Below the pieces are notes generated by a model. The model searched no databases, had not been told where the DNA came from, and saw only the letters and a program-made list of their open reading frames with translations. 34,657 nt of DNA from a virus. The stretch covers positions 1-34,657 of the IMG/VR virus record IMGVR_UViG_3300042904_000257; one strand, written 5' to 3'. The translations under genes and the position numbers were made by a program. Position 1 is the stretch's first letter; every line of letters starts with the position of its first letter. Of this stretch, positions 4,472-21,759 are shown piece by piece.

Positions 4472-4864
4472 CTAATTCGTGGCACCCGCAAGTCGCGCGT
4501 ACTCGAGTGCCGCGTTGCCGAACAGGGCAGGGGCGTCCGGCCTCTGCTGCCGGTCTGCGGCCAGGAGGTGCTCCACGGCCTCCTTGACGTCCGCGGGCAC
4601 CCGGAGCTCCTCGCCGGTCAGTTCGCGCTCCAGCAGCGCCACCAGCCGCCCGCGACCGGCCTTCGTGCCGAACCGGGCGAGCAGCGCCCACCGCCACGGG
4701 CCAGCGAAGTACCGCCGCGCCCGCCGGTCCCGCATGGACTCGTAGCCGAGCAGCCTCGCGGCCTCGGGCACCGTGATGCCCGCGAGGTCGTCCCCGCTGA
4801 CGGCGGCGGCCTCCGCGGGAGCGGCCCCCAGTGCGAGGGCCGCCTCCTCCAACTTGCGGTTCAC
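4472..4864 (-). CDS. Hypothetical early protein, 130 aa
   Basis: The GTG at 4864 overlaps the stop of the gene upstream (GTGA). The protein is largely helical, with ITVPEAARLLGYESMRDRRARRYF suggesting a helix-turn-helix-like middle. A tail follows (VKEAVEHLLAADRQQ, ALEYARLAG). It follows the replication genes directly, so a replication accessory role is possible, but no motif proves it. Confidence 0.6.
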   Translation of the reverse strand: MNRKLEEAALALGAAPAEAAAVSGDDLAGITVPEAARLLGYESMRDRRARRYFAGPWRWALLARFGTKAGRGRLVALLERELTGEELRVPADVKEAVEHLLAADRQQRPDAPALFGNAALEYARLAGATN

Positions 4865-5913
4865 CGGTAGCCCTCGAAGCGTGGACCGGCAGCGAACAGC
4901 GGCGAGTCGTAGGCGGAAGGTCGGCGGTCGGGGTGCTCCTCGTACCAACGGCGGACCACCTTGAGCCGCTCCGTCTGCCACTCCCGGCTGTCGGCCTCGA
5001 ACCACTCCCGGCACCGCTCCTCCGTGGCCGCCCACTCCTGCGCCTCCGCGAGCCGGTCCTCCGGGGTGCCGTCACCGGGCACGTCCTCCCAACGCGCCAG
5101 TCGACCGCCCACCTGAGAACGGGGCCGCTTGTCCTCTCGGTGCGCCCTGACCCATGCCGGGATCTCCCGCGGCGTCGGGTCGTTGGTCACGACGTTGGCG
5201 CCCTCGAGCTGGGCGCGCTCCGCCCACCGCTCCGCCTCGATGCCAAACGGGTCGTAGCGCCGCCACTCGGCGGGGAAGTCCGGCTGTCGGATGACGAAGT
5301 CGACGTTCAGACGGCGGTTCGGGATGTACTCCAGCGGGATCCCTTCCGGCATGTCGCCCTCCTTGAGGATGCTCCACTTCTCGTCGGCGCGGCCGAGCTT
5401 CTCCAGCGCCCACTCGACACGGCTGGTGAGCTGCTCGCCCGCCTTGAGGATGGCCTGGATGATCAGCAGCGCGTTGGTGGTGCCGTCGAGCATCTGTGCC
5501 AGCACCTCGGACGCGTGGTCGATCTGCTCGCCGGTGGGGTTGGCGCCCGTCTGCCGCATCGTCCTGATCCACAGGTCGAGCGCTTCGGCGTGGCTGGGGA
5601 TGCGGGCGCCGTCCTCGGTGTAGCCGCCCTGGCAACGCGCCTTGCGCCGCTCCAGGTTGATCCACCGGGTGATGTGCGCCGGTTCGAGGTATTCGGTGCG
5701 CGTCGCCTTGTGGTGGTCGATGGCGCGGCACGCCTCCTCGAACGTCCACCCGCCGATCTGCGACGCCGACGTCCACGCCGCCTTCTCCGAGTGGCCGAAG
5801 GTGCGCCGGTCGTACGCCGCAGCGCGCTGGAGCAGCTCCACCACCTGGTCCGGGGTCGGAGCGGTGTAGTGGGCGACCTGTCCGCCGGTGGGGCGGACCG
5901 CGAGGTCGGTCAT
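4861..5913 (-). CDS. Putative replication accessory protein (loader-like)
   Basis: A 350-aa protein encoded directly after the initiator. The N-terminal domain (about 18-95) has VVELLQRAAAYDRRTFG, a W-containing helix, GWTFEEACRAIDHH and EPAHITRWINLERRK. This build is common in actinophage proteins encoded next to the initiator and resembles small helical replication or loader domains. The middle is helical (ALLIIQAILKAGEQL) and the C-terminal third is polar with many Trp and Glu. No Walker motif is visible, so it is not itself a helicase. The function is inferred from position. Confidence 0.55.
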   Translation of the reverse strand: MTDLAVRPTGGQVAHYTAPTPDQVVELLQRAAAYDRRTFGHSEKAAWTSASQIGGWTFEEACRAIDHHKATRTEYLEPAHITRWINLERRKARCQGGYTEDGARIPSHAEALDLWIRTMRQTGANPTGEQIDHASEVLAQMLDGTTNALLIIQAILKAGEQLTSRVEWALEKLGRADEKWSILKEGDMPEGIPLEYIPNRRLNVDFVIRQPDFPAEWRRYDPFGIEAERWAERAQLEGANVVTNDPTPREIPAWVRAHREDKRPRSQVGGRLARWEDVPGDGTPEDRLAEAQEWAATEERCREWFEADSREWQTERLKVVRRWYEEHPDRRPSAYDSPLFAAGPRFEGYR

Positions 5914-5926
5914 GGGTTCCTCCTGG

Positions 5927-7156
5927 TCAGGCCGGCTGCTGCCAGCCGAAGTCGTGTGCGTTCGTCGGGTTGATGCCGAACCGGGCCAGGACGTCCCAGT
6001 CGGGGGAGGACTTCAGGAACTCCCCTTGCACCCACCGCAGGTCACCGGTCGACAACCTGGGCGTGCTGGTCGACCGGTTCCCCTGGGTTGCGGTACGGAC
6101 GCCCGCAGTGGTCGCTTCGATGGCGTTCAACAGGGTCTGCCCGGTCAGCGGCCGGTGCCGCTCGACAGTCGCCAGGTGCTTGAGTCCGTCGCGCACCTGC
6201 TCGTAGGTGAACCGTTCGAGCGCACGGGCAACCACAGTTCGGACGCCCATGAAGGCCGACATCTTGGCCATGGCCTCGTGGTAGCTCGTTGCGAGGTGCT
6301 GCGCCTGCCGTGCCCGCTCGGCCTTGGCCGGGTCCACCGGCTTCGCCTGCCGTGGCTTCTTGGCGTTCTTCGCGGGCTTCCTCGGTGCCGGGTCGGTGGG
6401 CACGTCGAACAGCCGGTCGCCGTCCTCGACGATGTCCGCGTCGATGACCGTCGGGGCGTCCTTGCCCTCTTCGGAGAGCGCGAACGTGACGGGCGTGGAA
6501 GGGGCATCTTCGGCGCGCGACGCGTCAGCGTCCGCCCGGTACGTAGTACCGGCATGGAGTTCAGTAGTTAGTACTTGGGAGTTCAAGGGAGTTACAGCGC
6601 TCTGACCAGCGGATGTCCGACCAACTTGGGCGTGACTCACGCCCAACTCTTGCGTGACATCGGCACCTGTCACGGTGGAGTTCTGCGTGACACTCTCGTC
6701 TGTCACGCCCAACTCTGGCGTGATGTCACGCCCAAGTTCACCGTGACCGTCACGCGAGATTTGAGCGTGACTCCCGTCCTTGCGCTGCTGGCGCTCCCGC
6801 TGCTTGCGCTCGCGATCGGAGGCCCTCTTGCGCTCCAACCGGGACTCCACCACCTCGTCCCGCTCGTGCTGGACGTGGATGTTCAGCGCCCACCCGTCGG
6901 CACCGTTCGACGCCTTCTCGGACCGGACGTAGCCACGCTCGACGAGTCGCGCGAGCACCTCGTCCAGCTCCGCTAGATCGACCAGACCTTGACGGGCCAG
7001 CGTGTCCACCGAGACGAACACGTCGGTGCCGTTGTTCTGTGCGTAGGTGGCCATGATGAGCAAGATGTGGTGGGCCACGCGGTCCTTGCGCTTCTTGTGG
7101 ATCATCATGGGCACGTCGCGCGCCCACCGGATCGCCGTGAACCGCGTCTTCGGCAT
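5927..7156 (-). CDS. Replication initiator, lambda-O-like winged-helix protein
   Basis: A 409-aa protein. Residues 1-100 form a helix-turn-helix initiator domain: TRFTAIRWARDVP, then HHILLIMATYAQNNGTDVFVSVDTLA and LDEVLARLVERGYV. A charged linker (about 105-135) leads into a segment with repeated ELGVT/ELGVSHAQVG motifs, encoded by the iteron DNA at 6626-6771. A helical C-terminal domain (about 270-405) could recruit a helicase or loader. An origin placed inside the initiator gene is the lambda O arrangement. It heads the replication genes; the accessory protein follows immediately. Confidence 0.7.
   Translation of the reverse strand: MPKTRFTAIRWARDVPMMIHKKRKDRVAHHILLIMATYAQNNGTDVFVSVDTLARQGLVDLAELDEVLARLVERGYVRSEKASNGADGWALNIHVQHERDEVVESRLERKRASDRERKQRERQQRKDGSHAQISRDGHGELGRDITPELGVTDESVTQNSTVTGADVTQELGVSHAQVGRTSAGQSAVTPLNSQVLTTELHAGTTYRADADASRAEDAPSTPVTFALSEEGKDAPTVIDADIVEDGDRLFDVPTDPAPRKPAKNAKKPRQAKPVDPAKAERARQAQHLATSYHEAMAKMSAFMGVRTVVARALERFTYEQVRDGLKHLATVERHRPLTGQTLLNAIEATTAGVRTATQGNRSTSTPRLSTGDLRWVQGEFLKSSPDWDVLARFGINPTNAHDFGWQQPA
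6626..6771. other. Iteron array, likely origin of replication
   Basis: About ten copies of GCGTGA[CT] or its complement lie in 146 bp inside the initiator gene. The best-conserved forms are TTGGGCGTGA at 6626-6635 and its complement TCACGCCCAA at 6637-6646, 6703-6712 and 6726-6735. The first two make a near-touching perfect palindrome with one central base. Weaker copies lie at 6652, 6685, 6718, 6741, 6749 and 6764. The arrangement matches iteron origins bound by the protein they encode. AT content is not strongly raised here; an unwinding element was not identified. Confidence 0.6.
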
Positions 7157-11041: not shown

Positions 11042-11776
11042 GTGCCTAGCCAACGACAGCCAACGGACCGCACCTACCCGTGGGAGACGCAGTTCGTGGC
11101 CAACATGAAGAACCTTCGCGAAGCAAGGGGGATGACTCAGACAGACCTAGCTAAGGCACTTCGATCGGAAGGTCTCCCTTTCCATCAGCAGACGATTCAG
11201 AGGATTGAGTCGGGGGAGCGGCCGGTCAGGCTGAACGAGGCCCACCTGATCGCGGGCTTCTTTCGAGTCAAACCGGAGACCATGACCGAGTCTTTCGTGG
11301 CGACAGACAATCACCTACTATGGGAGATGGAGCGAGTAATAAATGAATCGGTGATATTGGTCGAATCGGTTGTTGAAAGCTATGACGAGTGGACCGATAG
11401 AGTTTCTTCTTTTTTTGTGCAGCTCGAAGAAGTGATCGACCGTGAAGGAGTCTACGACTTCGAACTACTCCCGTACCCTGCGAAGGTCGGACTAGCCTTC
11501 GCCAAACACCTGCTAGCCACCTCACGAAATATCGAAGAGGGCTACCACGGTATTCTTCAACGCTACGGAGACAGGCAAGGCGAGACCCGTGAGGACCGCT
11601 GGATGGTCGCAGATCCGGGTGTCACGGTATACGACAGCATGAGAGAACTGCTGCGCATATTTGAGCACGAACGCCTTGAAGAGCTCTCCCGCGAAAACGC
11701 TTACTCACTGCATTCGAACTTGCGGATATATATCGACAAGAACACTAGGCAGGCGCAAGGCGAGAGCAACGGATAA
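11042..11776 (+). CDS. XRE-family immunity repressor
   Basis: A 244-aa protein from the GTG at 11042; a TTG at 11027 would overlap operator 2 and is less likely. Residues about 17-80 form an XRE helix-turn-helix (NMKNLREARGMTQTDLAKAL, QQTIQRIESGERP). The rest is mostly helical and acidic (ESVVESYDEWTDRVSSFFVQLEE), with no peptidase motif, so it is not a LexA-like self-cleaving repressor. The centre (about 11330-11430) is much richer in A and T than its surroundings. It stands directly upstream of the integrase in the same direction. It most likely represses the leftward early promoter through the two 16-bp repeats. Confidence 0.75.
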   Translation: MPSQRQPTDRTYPWETQFVANMKNLREARGMTQTDLAKALRSEGLPFHQQTIQRIESGERPVRLNEAHLIAGFFRVKPETMTESFVATDNHLLWEMERVINESVILVESVVESYDEWTDRVSSFFVQLEEVIDREGVYDFELLPYPAKVGLAFAKHLLATSRNIEEGYHGILQRYGDRQGETREDRWMVADPGVTVYDSMRELLRIFEHERLEELSRENAYSLHSNLRIYIDKNTRQAQGESNG

Positions 11777-11797
11777 ACCAGCGAAGGGTAAAGTTCC

Positions 11798-13141
11798 ATG
11801 GGCTTCACAAAAGACCTCTGGACAGCTCCGGAGAAGCCGCTGGGAGTAGTCGCCGACCGTGTGGCCGAGTCGGGAGAGAAGTGTCGATGCGGCAAGCCCG
11901 CTGTGAAGGTGTGCACCGTCAAGGGTGGTGCCGACGTGGCCTGGTGCGGCGAGAACAAGCGTCTCCCTAACGCCAGGTACGGCAAGGGCAAGCGGTGGTT
12001 GGCAGTGTGGCACGACCCGGACGGGAACGAGCGCACGAAGGCGTTCGCCAAGAAGACGCCAGCCGACCTGCACTGGCAGGCCCAAGAGACGGACGTCGAG
12101 CGCGGCGACTACCGCGATCCGAAGGCGGGCCGGGAGAAGTTCGCCGAGGTCGCCGAGCGGTGGTTCACGTCCCGTAAGGTCGACCCGTCCAGTGCGATCA
12201 AGTACGAGTCCGTCTACCGCCTGCACGTCGAGCCGGTGTTCGGGCGCAAGTCGGTGAAGGCCATCCGGCCGTCCGACGTGTCAACGTTCCAGACGCAGCT
12301 CGGCGAGCGGTTCGGCCCGTCGACCGTGGCCGCCGCGCGCCTGGTCGTCGTCGGAGTGCTGGACCTCGCGCTAGCCGACGACCTGATCAAGAAGAACCCG
12401 GCGACGAACAAGGTCGTCCAAAGCATCGACACGGAGCCCGCGGGCAAGGTGGTCGCGTGGTCCGACGACGTGGTGTTCACCGTCATCGACGCGCACCCCG
12501 ACCTGCTCCGCGCCATGCCGACGCTCGCCGCCACGTGCGGCCTGCGTGAGGGCGAGCTGTTCGGCATCGCCGAGGAAGACATCGACTTCGAGGCCGGCGT
12601 GGTGCACATCCGGCGACAGCTCAAGAAGCTCGGCCGCGACTACGTGTTCGGGCTTCCCAAGAACGACTCGGAGCGGACAGTGCCGCTCCCCAAGGGCACG
12701 GCGCAGGTACTCCGCGAGCACATCCGGAAGTACTCGCCGCAGCCGCTCACGCTGCCATGGGAGAAGCCGACCGGCGCCCCGGTGACGCACCGCATCTTGT
12801 TTCGGTGGATCGACGGCGGGCACATGAAGCCGCGTGCCTACTCCGAGACGGTGTGGAAGCCGGCGATCGCCGCGGCTGGGGTCATCCCGGCGCCGACGAA
12901 GGACAACCGGGGACGGAGGCGGTACGTCACCACGCGCAAGGAGGGGACGCACCAGCTCCGCCACTACTTCGCGTCGGTGATGCTGGCCGACGGCGTGAAC
13001 GTCAAGGAGCTCGCCGAGTACATGGGCCACCACGACGCGGCATACACACTGAAGAAGTACGTGCACCTGCTGCCCGACTCGCACGACCGCGCCCGGTCGG
13101 CGATGGACGCCCGCATGTTCCGGCCGCGCGCCGTGGGCTGA
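11798..13141 (+). CDS. int: Tyrosine integrase
   Basis: A 447-aa phage integrase. Catalytic residues are R250 (ATCGLREGELFG), K288 in the beta hairpin (GLPKNDSERTVPL), H385 and R388 (THQLRHYF), H411 or H412 (YMGHHDAAYT) and Y421. Residues about 60-105 (GKRWLAVWHDPDG) form the arm-DNA-binding AP2-like domain, and about 112-205 the core-binding SAM-like domain. Ahead of these, C29, C31, C39 and C50 look like an added zinc-ribbon-like segment. It follows the repressor by 21 bp, so both may be expressed in the lysogen. The 3' end points at attP, the usual layout. Confidence 0.95.
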   Translation: MGFTKDLWTAPEKPLGVVADRVAESGEKCRCGKPAVKVCTVKGGADVAWCGENKRLPNARYGKGKRWLAVWHDPDGNERTKAFAKKTPADLHWQAQETDVERGDYRDPKAGREKFAEVAERWFTSRKVDPSSAIKYESVYRLHVEPVFGRKSVKAIRPSDVSTFQTQLGERFGPSTVAAARLVVVGVLDLALADDLIKKNPATNKVVQSIDTEPAGKVVAWSDDVVFTVIDAHPDLLRAMPTLAATCGLREGELFGIAEEDIDFEAGVVHIRRQLKKLGRDYVFGLPKNDSERTVPLPKGTAQVLREHIRKYSPQPLTLPWEKPTGAPVTHRILFRWIDGGHMKPRAYSETVWKPAIAAAGVIPAPTKDNRGRRRYVTTRKEGTHQLRHYFASVMLADGVNVKELAEYMGHHDAAYTLKKYVHLLPDSHDRARSAMDARMFRPRAVG

Positions 13142-19041: not shown

Positions 19042-21759
19042 CTACAGCCCCAAGTAGTTGATGTCGGCGATGTGCACTTCGGCTCCGGCAAGGTGCGCCT
19101 TGGACACGCCGTTGGCCGCGCGGGCGGAAGCGGTGAACGTCTGCGGGCTGGAGCTACCGGTGATGGCCGAGATCGTGATTCGTTCGCCGCCGACCATGAT
19201 GGAGAGCGGGAAGTCACCGGCGTCGGTGGTCCACAGGTCTAGCGGGTCGGTTGTGGTCACCTGGAACGACGTCGCCGAACTGGTGAGCGAGGACGTCAGG
19301 GTCGACGTGCCCGAGTCCAGCCGGTCGTAGTCCGCGTCGTCCGGGGTGAGGATCCGGTACGGCGTACCGGGCTCGCAGGTCACCACCAGGCGGTGCCCGT
19401 ACGCCCTCAGGTGCTCGCTGTAGCCGGTGGCCAGCAGGTCGACGTCGTCGTGGATACCGAGGTCGCCGAGGCCGGTGAGCAGCACCCGGTCCCCTCCGTC
19501 CAAGCTCAGCGCCCCGGCCGTGAGTGCCGTGTTTCCTGCCACGGCGGCGAGGTCGAACGTGATGGCCGGGTAGCGCTGCCCGTCGACCGTGCCCAGGTGC
19601 AGCAGCCAGTCGGCGATCAGTTGCAGTTGGTCGTCGATCTCGGTGTTGACCTCGACCCGCGTGGTGTATCGGCCTGCCCCACCCTCTGCCGGGTCGAGCA
19701 CCGACATGCGCCCCGACTCCAGCACGGCCCGTGCGGTCGAGCCGTCGGTGCGCTGCACGGTGATGTCGTTGCGAGTGGTCAGGTCGTCGTCGGTCGGTTC
19801 GAACGGTGTGGACAGCTCGCCGGCGGAGTAGTCGACGGTCACCGCGGTCTGGTTGTACAGCGACGCGCGGGTCCGGTAGAGCAGAGCCGCGGTCCCGCGT
19901 GCTTCGCCGAGCCGGCCCTGGTCGACGTCGGCGCACTCGCGGAGCAGATCGAGGAACCGCCCGGGTCGCTGTGGCCCCATGCGCGCCTCGTCGTCGACGG
20001 TGCCGGTGATCGCGAGCGGAACGCCTTCCTCCGCGCACAGGCGGGTGAGCCGGTCGGTGGCCGTCTCGCCGCTGTAGGCGGCCAGCTCCTCGTGGAGGTC
20101 GAACAGGCTGGTGGTGGCCGACTCGACGGTGATGTGTCCGATGGCCGTGCCGTTGAGGTTGCCGTTGCCGACGAACCCGACCTCGGTGGCGGCCGACACC
20201 GTCCGGCTCGCGACTGTGCCGTCGAAGAAGCCGCCGGTGCGCGCACCGACCTCCAGCGCCGCCACCCGGTAGTACACGTCCGAGCCGGATTGCTCCAGCT
20301 CGACCGACACGCGTGCGAGGGCACCGTCGAGGGCGAACCCCGCGCTCTCGTCTGCGAGCAGCGTGCCGGTCGGGTCGTAGATGTAGAGGTGCAGCGCGCC
20401 GCCCACCTCGTAGTAGAGGTCGGCGTACCCGATGCTGCCCGTGGTGTAGACGCGGGAGATCAGCGTCGTTCCGCCCATGCCGCCGGCCGGCACCGCGAGC
20501 AGGTAGCGCAGCTGCACCTCACCGGTGCCCGTGTAGCCGGCGATGGACCCCTTCCAGGTCGTGACGCCGAGCGTCGGGATCGCGTCGGACGCGGCGAAGA
20601 CCTCGGACGCGGCGAGGCTGTAGGAGCCGCTGAGGATCATCGGCGAGCCGCCGTCCACGCCGCTGGCCAGCGACGAGGCGTCGCGGCCGTCCTCGCACGG
20701 CCAGTACGCCCGCAGGTTGGTCAGGGTGGGGATGCTGCGACGCAGGGTCGACAGGAGCGCGGACTGCCCTTGGCCCAGACGACGCAGGATCCCCGCGGCC
20801 TCGATCGGCACGGTGCGGTCGCGAGCCGTGGTGTCCCAGCGCGGAGGCCACGCTGACACCTCGCCCGCGTACCGGGGGCACCGCACCTCGAACCGGGTGT
20901 AGGAGAACACCACCGGCACGTTGGTGTTGCCGCTACCGACGCCGGACCGCACGCCGACCCAGCCCGACCGCGTGTCGGGCACCTGGGCGCTGACGTCCCA
21001 GTCGTAGGGCTCGCCGAGCGAGTCCGTCACCGACGTGTCCACCACCCAGACCTTCGCCCGGAAGACAGTGCCTTCCATCTGGGCGCGCACCGCGAGCTGC
21101 TGGCCGCTGTAGACCACCGGCAAGGTGACCGTGCTGCTGTAGTCGGGGCCGTTGGTCGCCATCAGCTTCACCGTGATCACCTCGGCCGAGGTGATCACCA
21201 CCCGCACCATGTAGTAGTCGGTGGCCGAGACGCCACGAAGCAGGACGTTGATCGGCTCCAAGTCGCCGCCGGTGATGTTGCTCGGCGCGAGGTCGACGAC
21301 GGCGAGCACGTCGACGTCGCGGTGTACCTCAGTGGCCAGGTACGACAGCCGGCTGGAGACCGTAGTGGAGATGGTGTGGGTTGCCGCCCCGCCCGTGACG
21401 GCGTAGTCGGCGAGCGCCGAGCCGGTGCTCCACACGTGCCCGTCCGCGGAGGTGCCCCACCCGTTGCTCACGGTGCGTCCGGCGAAGTCGTCGGTCGCCT
21501 GTCGCAGTGCCAGCCGCAACGGGGTGTTCCTGCCCAGCAGGGTGTGGTTGTCCGACAGCGGGTTGCGGGGGCTGTACCGCAGCTCGCGGTCGTTCAACGT
21601 GAGCGTGCACCGCGCCGGTGGGACGACGCGGTCCTCCGACGAGCTGCCCCGCCGGATGGTCACGCCCGCGGACTCGCGGACATCGCCGCTGATGTCGACC
21701 CACCGGTCCGAGATGAACAACTCGGCGGCGAGACCGAGCTGGTCGGCCGGAAACGCCAC
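19042..21759 (-). CDS. Large minor tail/baseplate hub protein
   Basis: A 905-aa protein. Residues 1-90 resemble a distal-tail or hub start (LFISDRWVDISGDV, TLTLNDRELRYSPRNPLS). About 90-290 is a beta-sandwich of carbohydrate-binding type (DDFAGRTVSNGWGTS). About 340-550 is a LamG/concanavalin-like domain (NLRAYWPCEDG). About 560-800 returns to hub-like sequence (DRLTRLCAEEGVPLAITG, RNDITVQRTDGS, LLATGYSEHL). The C-terminal 80 residues are another beta domain (TSSLTSSATSFQV, IMVGGERITISAI). The inserted domains probably contact the cell surface. It follows the tape measure by 4 bp. Confidence 0.75.
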   Translation of the reverse strand: MAFPADQLGLAAELFISDRWVDISGDVRESAGVTIRRGSSSEDRVVPPARCTLTLNDRELRYSPRNPLSDNHTLLGRNTPLRLALRQATDDFAGRTVSNGWGTSADGHVWSTGSALADYAVTGGAATHTISTTVSSRLSYLATEVHRDVDVLAVVDLAPSNITGGDLEPINVLLRGVSATDYYMVRVVITSAEVITVKLMATNGPDYSSTVTLPVVYSGQQLAVRAQMEGTVFRAKVWVVDTSVTDSLGEPYDWDVSAQVPDTRSGWVGVRSGVGSGNTNVPVVFSYTRFEVRCPRYAGEVSAWPPRWDTTARDRTVPIEAAGILRRLGQGQSALLSTLRRSIPTLTNLRAYWPCEDGRDASSLASGVDGGSPMILSGSYSLAASEVFAASDAIPTLGVTTWKGSIAGYTGTGEVQLRYLLAVPAGGMGGTTLISRVYTTGSIGYADLYYEVGGALHLYIYDPTGTLLADESAGFALDGALARVSVELEQSGSDVYYRVAALEVGARTGGFFDGTVASRTVSAATEVGFVGNGNLNGTAIGHITVESATTSLFDLHEELAAYSGETATDRLTRLCAEEGVPLAITGTVDDEARMGPQRPGRFLDLLRECADVDQGRLGEARGTAALLYRTRASLYNQTAVTVDYSAGELSTPFEPTDDDLTTRNDITVQRTDGSTARAVLESGRMSVLDPAEGGAGRYTTRVEVNTEIDDQLQLIADWLLHLGTVDGQRYPAITFDLAAVAGNTALTAGALSLDGGDRVLLTGLGDLGIHDDVDLLATGYSEHLRAYGHRLVVTCEPGTPYRILTPDDADYDRLDSGTSTLTSSLTSSATSFQVTTTDPLDLWTTDAGDFPLSIMVGGERITISAITGSSSPQTFTASARAANGVSKAHLAGAEVHIADINYLGL

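Follow-up and report, generated by a model that had tools for sequence, protein, structure and literature searches.

A candidate lambda-type replication origin embedded in the initiator gene of a virus with an actinophage-type helicase loader

Here, we identify an array of inverted repeats inside a replication initiator gene of the virus IMGVR_UViG_3300042904_000257 (IMG/VR) and argue that it is very probably an initiator-binding, lambda-type origin embedded in that gene. The window, i.e., the whole stretch of DNA analyzed, comprises 34,657 bases. A sequence-only reading of the window had proposed an iteron origin at this place. That proposal is supported by the assignment of the initiator to O-like families by PHROG profiles, which is weak for the window protein itself (P0001), by the neighboring gene for a putative helicase loader, and by the observation that the repeats track the DNA-binding domain of the initiator, all of which are drawn from sequence comparison.

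Results

The array is built from dyads. At 6630-6771, 11 half-sites with the core CGTGA follow each other in strict strand alternation (+ - + - + - + - + - +; Table 1). About ten GCGTGA[CT] heptamers in both directions had been claimed here; eight exact GCGTGAY copies are found at these positions, out of 34 in the window, where the shuffle mean is 23.0. The near-perfect 21-bp palindrome described in the same reading (TTGGGCGTGACTCACGCCCAA) is self-complementary at 20/20 non-central positions, and the repeated peptide motifs ELGVT and ELGVSHAQVG are indeed present in P0001. Where we depart from that reading is the heptamer as the unit. Five dyads of the form TCACG-N11-CGTGA occupy the array and are the sole exact copies in the 34,657 bases. 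These 21-bp dyads are imperfect inverted repeats in which 14 to 16 of the 20 non-central positions are self-complementary. The two arms are offset by 16 in all five dyads, and from a dyad to the half-site that follows the offsets are 17, 17, 7, and 8. Fixed spacing within dyads together with varying spacing between them points to the dyad as the binding unit. A dyad of 21-23 bp is more likely than the heptamer to be the functional unit of the array. The central A-N-T of the dyad is constant in 16/16 dyads from the window and its two relatives L101 and L095, which are described below. The array lies mid-gene, ~385 bp past the start codon and after the DNA-binding domain, as in the lambda-type layout; another ORF ends 3 bp upstream of the gene.

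Table 1. Features of the candidate replication module (positions in the window)
Feature	Position	Strand	Evidence
O-like replication initiator gene, 409 aa (P0001)	5927..7156	-	PHROG replication initiation families
N-terminal winged-helix DNA-binding domain, aa 1-98	6863..7156	-	HTH_36 profile, alignment
Basic helix behind winged helix, ~aa 100-127	6776..6859	-	sequence RLERKRASDRERKQRERQQRK; low-confidence single-sequence model
Array of 11 CGTGA half-sites, strand-alternating; putative origin iterons	6626..6771		motif scan, repeat score
21-bp palindrome: end half-site (6630-6636) plus first arm of dyad 1	6626..6646		
Dyad 1, TCACG-N11-CGTGA	6637..6657		exact motif match
Dyad 2, TCACG-N11-CGTGA	6670..6690		exact motif match
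Dyad 3, TCACG-N11-CGTGA	6703..6723		exact motif match
Dyad 4, TCACG-N11-CGTGA	6726..6746		exact motif match
Dyad 5, TCACG-N11-CGTGA	6750..6770		exact motif match
AT-rich segment, putative unwinding element; directly downstream (gene direction) of array	6537..6603		AT content
C-terminal tail motif, also present in unrelated actinophage initiators; possible loader contact	5930..6070	-	alignment of eight; putative function
Putative helicase loader, 350 aa; loader domain aa 22-91	4861..5913	-	tblastn, PHROG, alignment

The arrangement of the repeats exceeds that in synonymous codon shuffles of the initiator gene, which keep both the protein and the codon usage. None of 5000 such shuffles contained more than three dyads or reached a repeat score above 26, vs. 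five dyads and a score of 40 in the actual gene. The total number of half-sites in the gene, 13, is less extreme (null mean 6.1, maximum 15 in 5000 shuffles), and the weight of the evidence therefore lies on their arrangement. The half-sites of the array are distributed over the reading frames as 2, 3, and 6, so that all three frames are used. Among all 150-bp repeat clusters in the window, the array ranks highest, with a score of 40 against 18 for the next; this second cluster, at 21171-21320, lies inside the ORF at 19042-21759. The GC skew of the window does not turn at the array and, therefore, speaks neither for nor against an origin there.

The initiator and its neighbor. P0001 has weak matches to phrog_270 (E 4.9e-5) and the O-like phrog_391 (4e-4), while its relatives L101 and L095 match replication-initiation PHROGs more strongly. 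Similarly, with the HTH_36 profile (PF13730), P0001 scores 21.5 bits, under the gathering cutoff of 25, and the homologs L101 and L095 score 28.3 bits, over the cutoff. A low-confidence AlphaFold2 model of P0001 from the single sequence (mean pLDDT 46.9) places a helix at residues 100-128. Judged by Pfam profiles, P0001 falls outside the lambda O family: Phage_rep_O (PF04492) matched neither P0001 (E up to 0.1) nor L101, L095, L063, and L088 (E up to 0.01), whereas lambda O itself, included as a control, matched at 5.7e-36. Single-protein pattern scans for P0001 in viral and genome contigs returned nothing, and the viral scan missed L101, a homolog that was reached solely via the DNA pattern. 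Against phages, tblastn of P0001 gave no match at 1e-5 and two weak matches at E up to 1, and a PDB sequence search gave nothing useful. In the C-terminal tail motif, E17, K20, P23, L28, and G32 are invariant in an alignment of eight. The tail pattern E..L.K..P....L...G also occurs at the C-termini of L003, L006, L009, L010, L018, L023, and L026, which are initiators with differing N-terminal domains.

The gene for the putative helicase loader lies immediately downstream of the initiator gene, again as in the lambda-type layout. By tblastn, the loader matched 29 phage records, many of them annotated as helicase loader (best E 7e-10), and it matches phrog_37378 at E 3.8e-15. Its 70-aa domain has the seven invariant columns (L, D, R, W, A, H, and P) of the actinophage helicase-loader family. 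In 9/9 phage records inspected, a loader with this domain has a gene directly upstream of it; the annotations of these nine genes read HTH protein or initiation protein in five cases, DNA binding protein in one, and hypothetical in three.

The AT-rich segment beside the array has at least 52% AT over 60 bp, a level that four segments of the window reach, this one included. An AT-rich flank as a general rule for arrays was considered and rejected because the flanks are inconsistent across other genes. Of the four segments, two are located at 11282-11827, just ahead of the integrase gene and at its start, and possibly mark an attachment-site or control region. The integrase gene itself (11798-13141) has relatives at 58% and 53% identity in two Kribbella genomes, which hints at a possible host in that group. 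P0001 had no match in three Kribbella genomes, no related replication module was seen in L014, and a search of 391 genomes from the taxonomic order to which a Kribbella genome belongs gave one marginal match to P0001 (E 8.5e-4), confined to aa 208-338. The window also encodes a tRNA-Met (CAT anticodon) at 2462-2536 on the minus strand.

Dyads and winged-helix domain occur together. A search of 2.9 million viral contigs for DNA alone, i.e., for two adjacent dyads with no protein information, returned 47 loci. In 37 of these, the array lies inside an ORF matching the profile of the window-type winged-helix domain (weakest E 1.7e-17); five of the 37 had served as seeds of the profile, and without the seeds the count is 32/42. 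L091, in addition to the 37, carries a linker of this kind in truncated form. The nine remaining loci are L066, L068, L070, L077, L082, L092, L096, L099, and L107; some of them have other HTH-like ORFs, and L082 and L099 look like chance. L066, L070, L077, L092, and L107 have two TCACG-N11-CGTGA dyads each, in ORFs that the window-type profile does not match, possibly as a result of convergent use of the same site. The absence of the repeats from close homologs had been named beforehand as the observation that would speak against the iteron reading; in fact, the homologs carry them. L101, which is 45% identical to the window protein over 350 aligned positions and, thus, most of its length, has six dyads, and L095, which has the domain and the linker in common with the window protein but not the C-terminus, has five.

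In the reverse direction, a search with what we call the Streptomyces-like domain, a label given here after a match to phage TurkishDelight, yielded 45 loci. The genes at these loci contain 118 exact dyads in 44,044 bp and their flanks 0 in 217,362 bp; the search domain was taken from the DNA set and the loci hence belong to the same family, so that only the presence of dyads is independent. Sixteen of the contigs, some of which are near-duplicates (e.g., L121 and L122), lie outside the DNA set: 11 have at least two exact dyads, 14 do so if up to one mismatch is allowed, and two, L148 and L152, have no dyads. In the Streptomyces-like family, 102/118 dyads start in one frame, and a peptide constraint may therefore act there.

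Embedded arrays in other phage initiator genes. To describe how widespread the layout is, the repeat score in 150 bp was compared with that of synonymous shuffles of the same gene. Ten of 13 initiators beside actinophage loaders, the window included, exceeded all 100 shuffles, vs. 0/41 controls, which are other genes from the loci of the 13; L020 (1/100), L018, and L007 did not exceed all shuffles, and in L018 and L007 a clear array is lacking. A second set came from a loader-based search of viral contigs that gave 35 loci, from which three without an upstream ORF and four duplicates were removed. Among the resulting 28 genes upstream of loaders, 12 exceeded all 200 shuffles and nine more fell below 5%, with no clear array in L036, L044, and L056; this set retains L052, L054, and L055, which are not HTH genes by sequence reading, and it overlaps with the first, as three phages occur in both (L029, L030, and L035 here, L004, L005, and L010 there). 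In the same test, lambda O had a z of 10.7, lambda P of 0.0, and cII of −1.3. All of four further named phages, three actinobacterial and one of Pseudomonas, exceeded 200 shuffles. When 394 genomes of the class were searched for the loader, five matches emerged, of which L018-L020 were used and L021 and L022 left out. The layout had been called rarely documented in actinophages. With 10/13, 12/28, and 3/3 named actinophages passing, the embedded array appears by this test to be common in actinophages; it is rarely described.

The repeat sequences differ from phage to phage, in a comparison made without L052, L054, L055, L029, L030, and L035. For the comparison of gene pairs, the 31 of 36 genes with an array score of at least 9 were used. 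Among pairs with similar N-termini and dissimilar C-termini, 19/23 have repeated 7-mers in common, compared to 1/13 pairs with dissimilar N-termini and similar C-termini and 50/385 pairs dissimilar at both ends; these pairs are not independent of each other. Most of the 23 pairs come from one domain cluster, and without that cluster 4/8 share repeats. In this main cluster, 9/9 genes have at least two copies of GGAACAG, vs. 2/27 other genes (Fisher p 5.8e-7). Because the array adjoins the DNA-binding domain, shared ancestry and linkage account for part of the cosegregation. As judged from these comparisons, the repeat sequence tracks the DNA-binding domain and not the C-terminus. In L154 (Gordonia DatBoi), L155 (Arthrobacter Kuleana), and L156 and L058 (Pseudomonas phages), the repeats are graded, via GGGGTGCA and GGGGTGACA, towards CGTGAC, and this series parallels the divergence of the HTH domains; it is possibly a recognition-code ladder.

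Discussion

We suggest a model whereby each 21-23-bp dyad (GTCACGC-N9-GCGTGAC type) is contacted by the winged-helix domain of the 409-aa initiator, which probably binds as a dimer. With several dimers in place, the 146-bp array would be wrapped and the AT-rich segment at 6537-6603 destabilized. The C-terminal part of the initiator, perhaps through the conserved tail, for which contact with the helicase loader is possible, would recruit the loader encoded next door (4861-5913), which in turn would deliver the host replicative helicase.

Other explanations of the array have to be weighed against this model. The dyads might be bound by the initiator and yet mainly limit initiation or repress transcription, i.e., serve autoregulation, copy control, or immunity, with the start of replication at another place. 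Inverted repeats are a typical form of operator, and the GC skew gives no pointer to the array; however, the array is in the middle of the gene, far past the start codon and behind another ORF, which is no promoter position, and lambda has the same layout. We consider a mainly regulatory role unlikely. Alternatively, the repeats could have arisen by slippage, or incidentally through selection on the linker peptide and its repetitive sequence (VTQELGVSHAQ-type). The linker peptide is visibly repetitive and the dyads of the Streptomyces-like family are mostly in one frame, but in the window the half-sites use three frames on alternating strands with a fixed 16-base arm offset, the dyads outnumber those in each of the 5000 synonymous shuffles, and the central A-N-T is also kept, which makes such an origin of the repeats very improbable.

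Binding of the array by a factor other than the initiator, e.g., a host protein or a phage repressor, would fit the two dyads of L066, L070, L077, L092, and L107 in ORFs outside the domain profile. By contrast, a common host factor would not yield repeats that follow the N-terminal domain of the initiator, as they do in the pair comparison (19/23 vs. 1/13), and we regard a different binding factor as hardly more than a slight chance. An embedded, initiator-bound origin is, therefore, the explanation that we prefer.

Beyond the window, winged-helix phage initiators in general could carry the origin as a portable cassette in which the domain and its cognate linker repeats are exchanged as a unit between C-terminal and loader modules; we give this generalization an even chance. 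If true, the initiator genes of many unstudied phages would directly reveal the origins of these phages, and natural domain-repeat pairs could be used to work out a protein-DNA recognition code. It would likewise account for the exchange of initiator specificity between phages without loss of the matching origin, and candidate minimal replicons for actinobacterial vectors could be drawn from such modules. In the literature that we found, few actinobacterial phages have a mapped replication origin, and a window-type module allows the origin, the protein that binds it, and the loader to be named from the sequence. With dozens of natural domain-repeat pairs at hand, the recognition rule is directly testable.

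In open-access papers, to which our literature search was confined, we did not find iterons inside such an actinophage initiator gene described, and an earlier description elsewhere is possible. The nearest precedent found, PMC7157519, suggests for a mycobacteriophage an origin that, as in lambda, is located within repA or upstream of this gene; passages from PMC6669507 and PMC5311408 have no bearing on iterons inside actinophage initiator genes.

Among known systems, lambda provides the general precedent. An origin inside the gene of its own recognizing protein is classical for this phage, and the layout proposed here is, thus, already known from lambda, with an initiator that, by profile search, is outside the Pfam family of lambda O. 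As in the lambda origin (gene O, loader gene P), the initiator gene has imperfect inverted repeats at its middle, past the part for the DNA-binding domain, the repeat spacing is about 20-24 bp, an AT-rich segment is beside the array, and the loader gene is immediately downstream. In lambda, the annotated iterons of gene O are spaced 20-24 bp apart, and PMC7466680 describes the iteron as an imperfect inverted repeat of ~18-19 bp with an adjoining AT-rich tract. Unlike lambda, the window has an initiator without a Phage_rep_O match, a neighbor from the actinophage loader family, a different dyad sequence, dyads of 21-23 rather than 18-19 bp, and 33/23-bp spacings.

The modules of the Gordonia phages RavenCo17, Lucky10, Kenna, ThankyouJordi, and RiverRaider, of Jace, and of the Microbacterium phage Gingerbug resemble that of the window in that the gene lies directly upstream of a same-domain loader and has an embedded array after the DNA-binding domain; in several, the C-terminal tail is similar. 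However, their DNA-binding domains and repeat sequences differ, e.g., 11-bp direct repeats inside the domain-linker region in Jace and GGAACAG repeats in Lucky10, and the loader is ~110 aa in most of these modules compared to 350 aa in the window. The O-like genes of the Pseudomonas phages SC_8_H2H8_2017 and JBD68 and of the Arthrobacter phage Kuleana also combine an HTH domain with an embedded array, and in SC_8 the gene for a replication protein P then comes after the O-like gene; their repeats are of the GGGGTGCA type rather than CGTGA dyads. Finally, the HTH_36-type initiators of the Streptomyces-like contigs and gp71 of the Streptomyces phage TurkishDelight often have two to three dyads, a spacing of 24 or 55 bp, and other C-terminal parts, but they have in common with the window initiator a related winged helix and TCACG-N11-CGTGA dyads in the linker.
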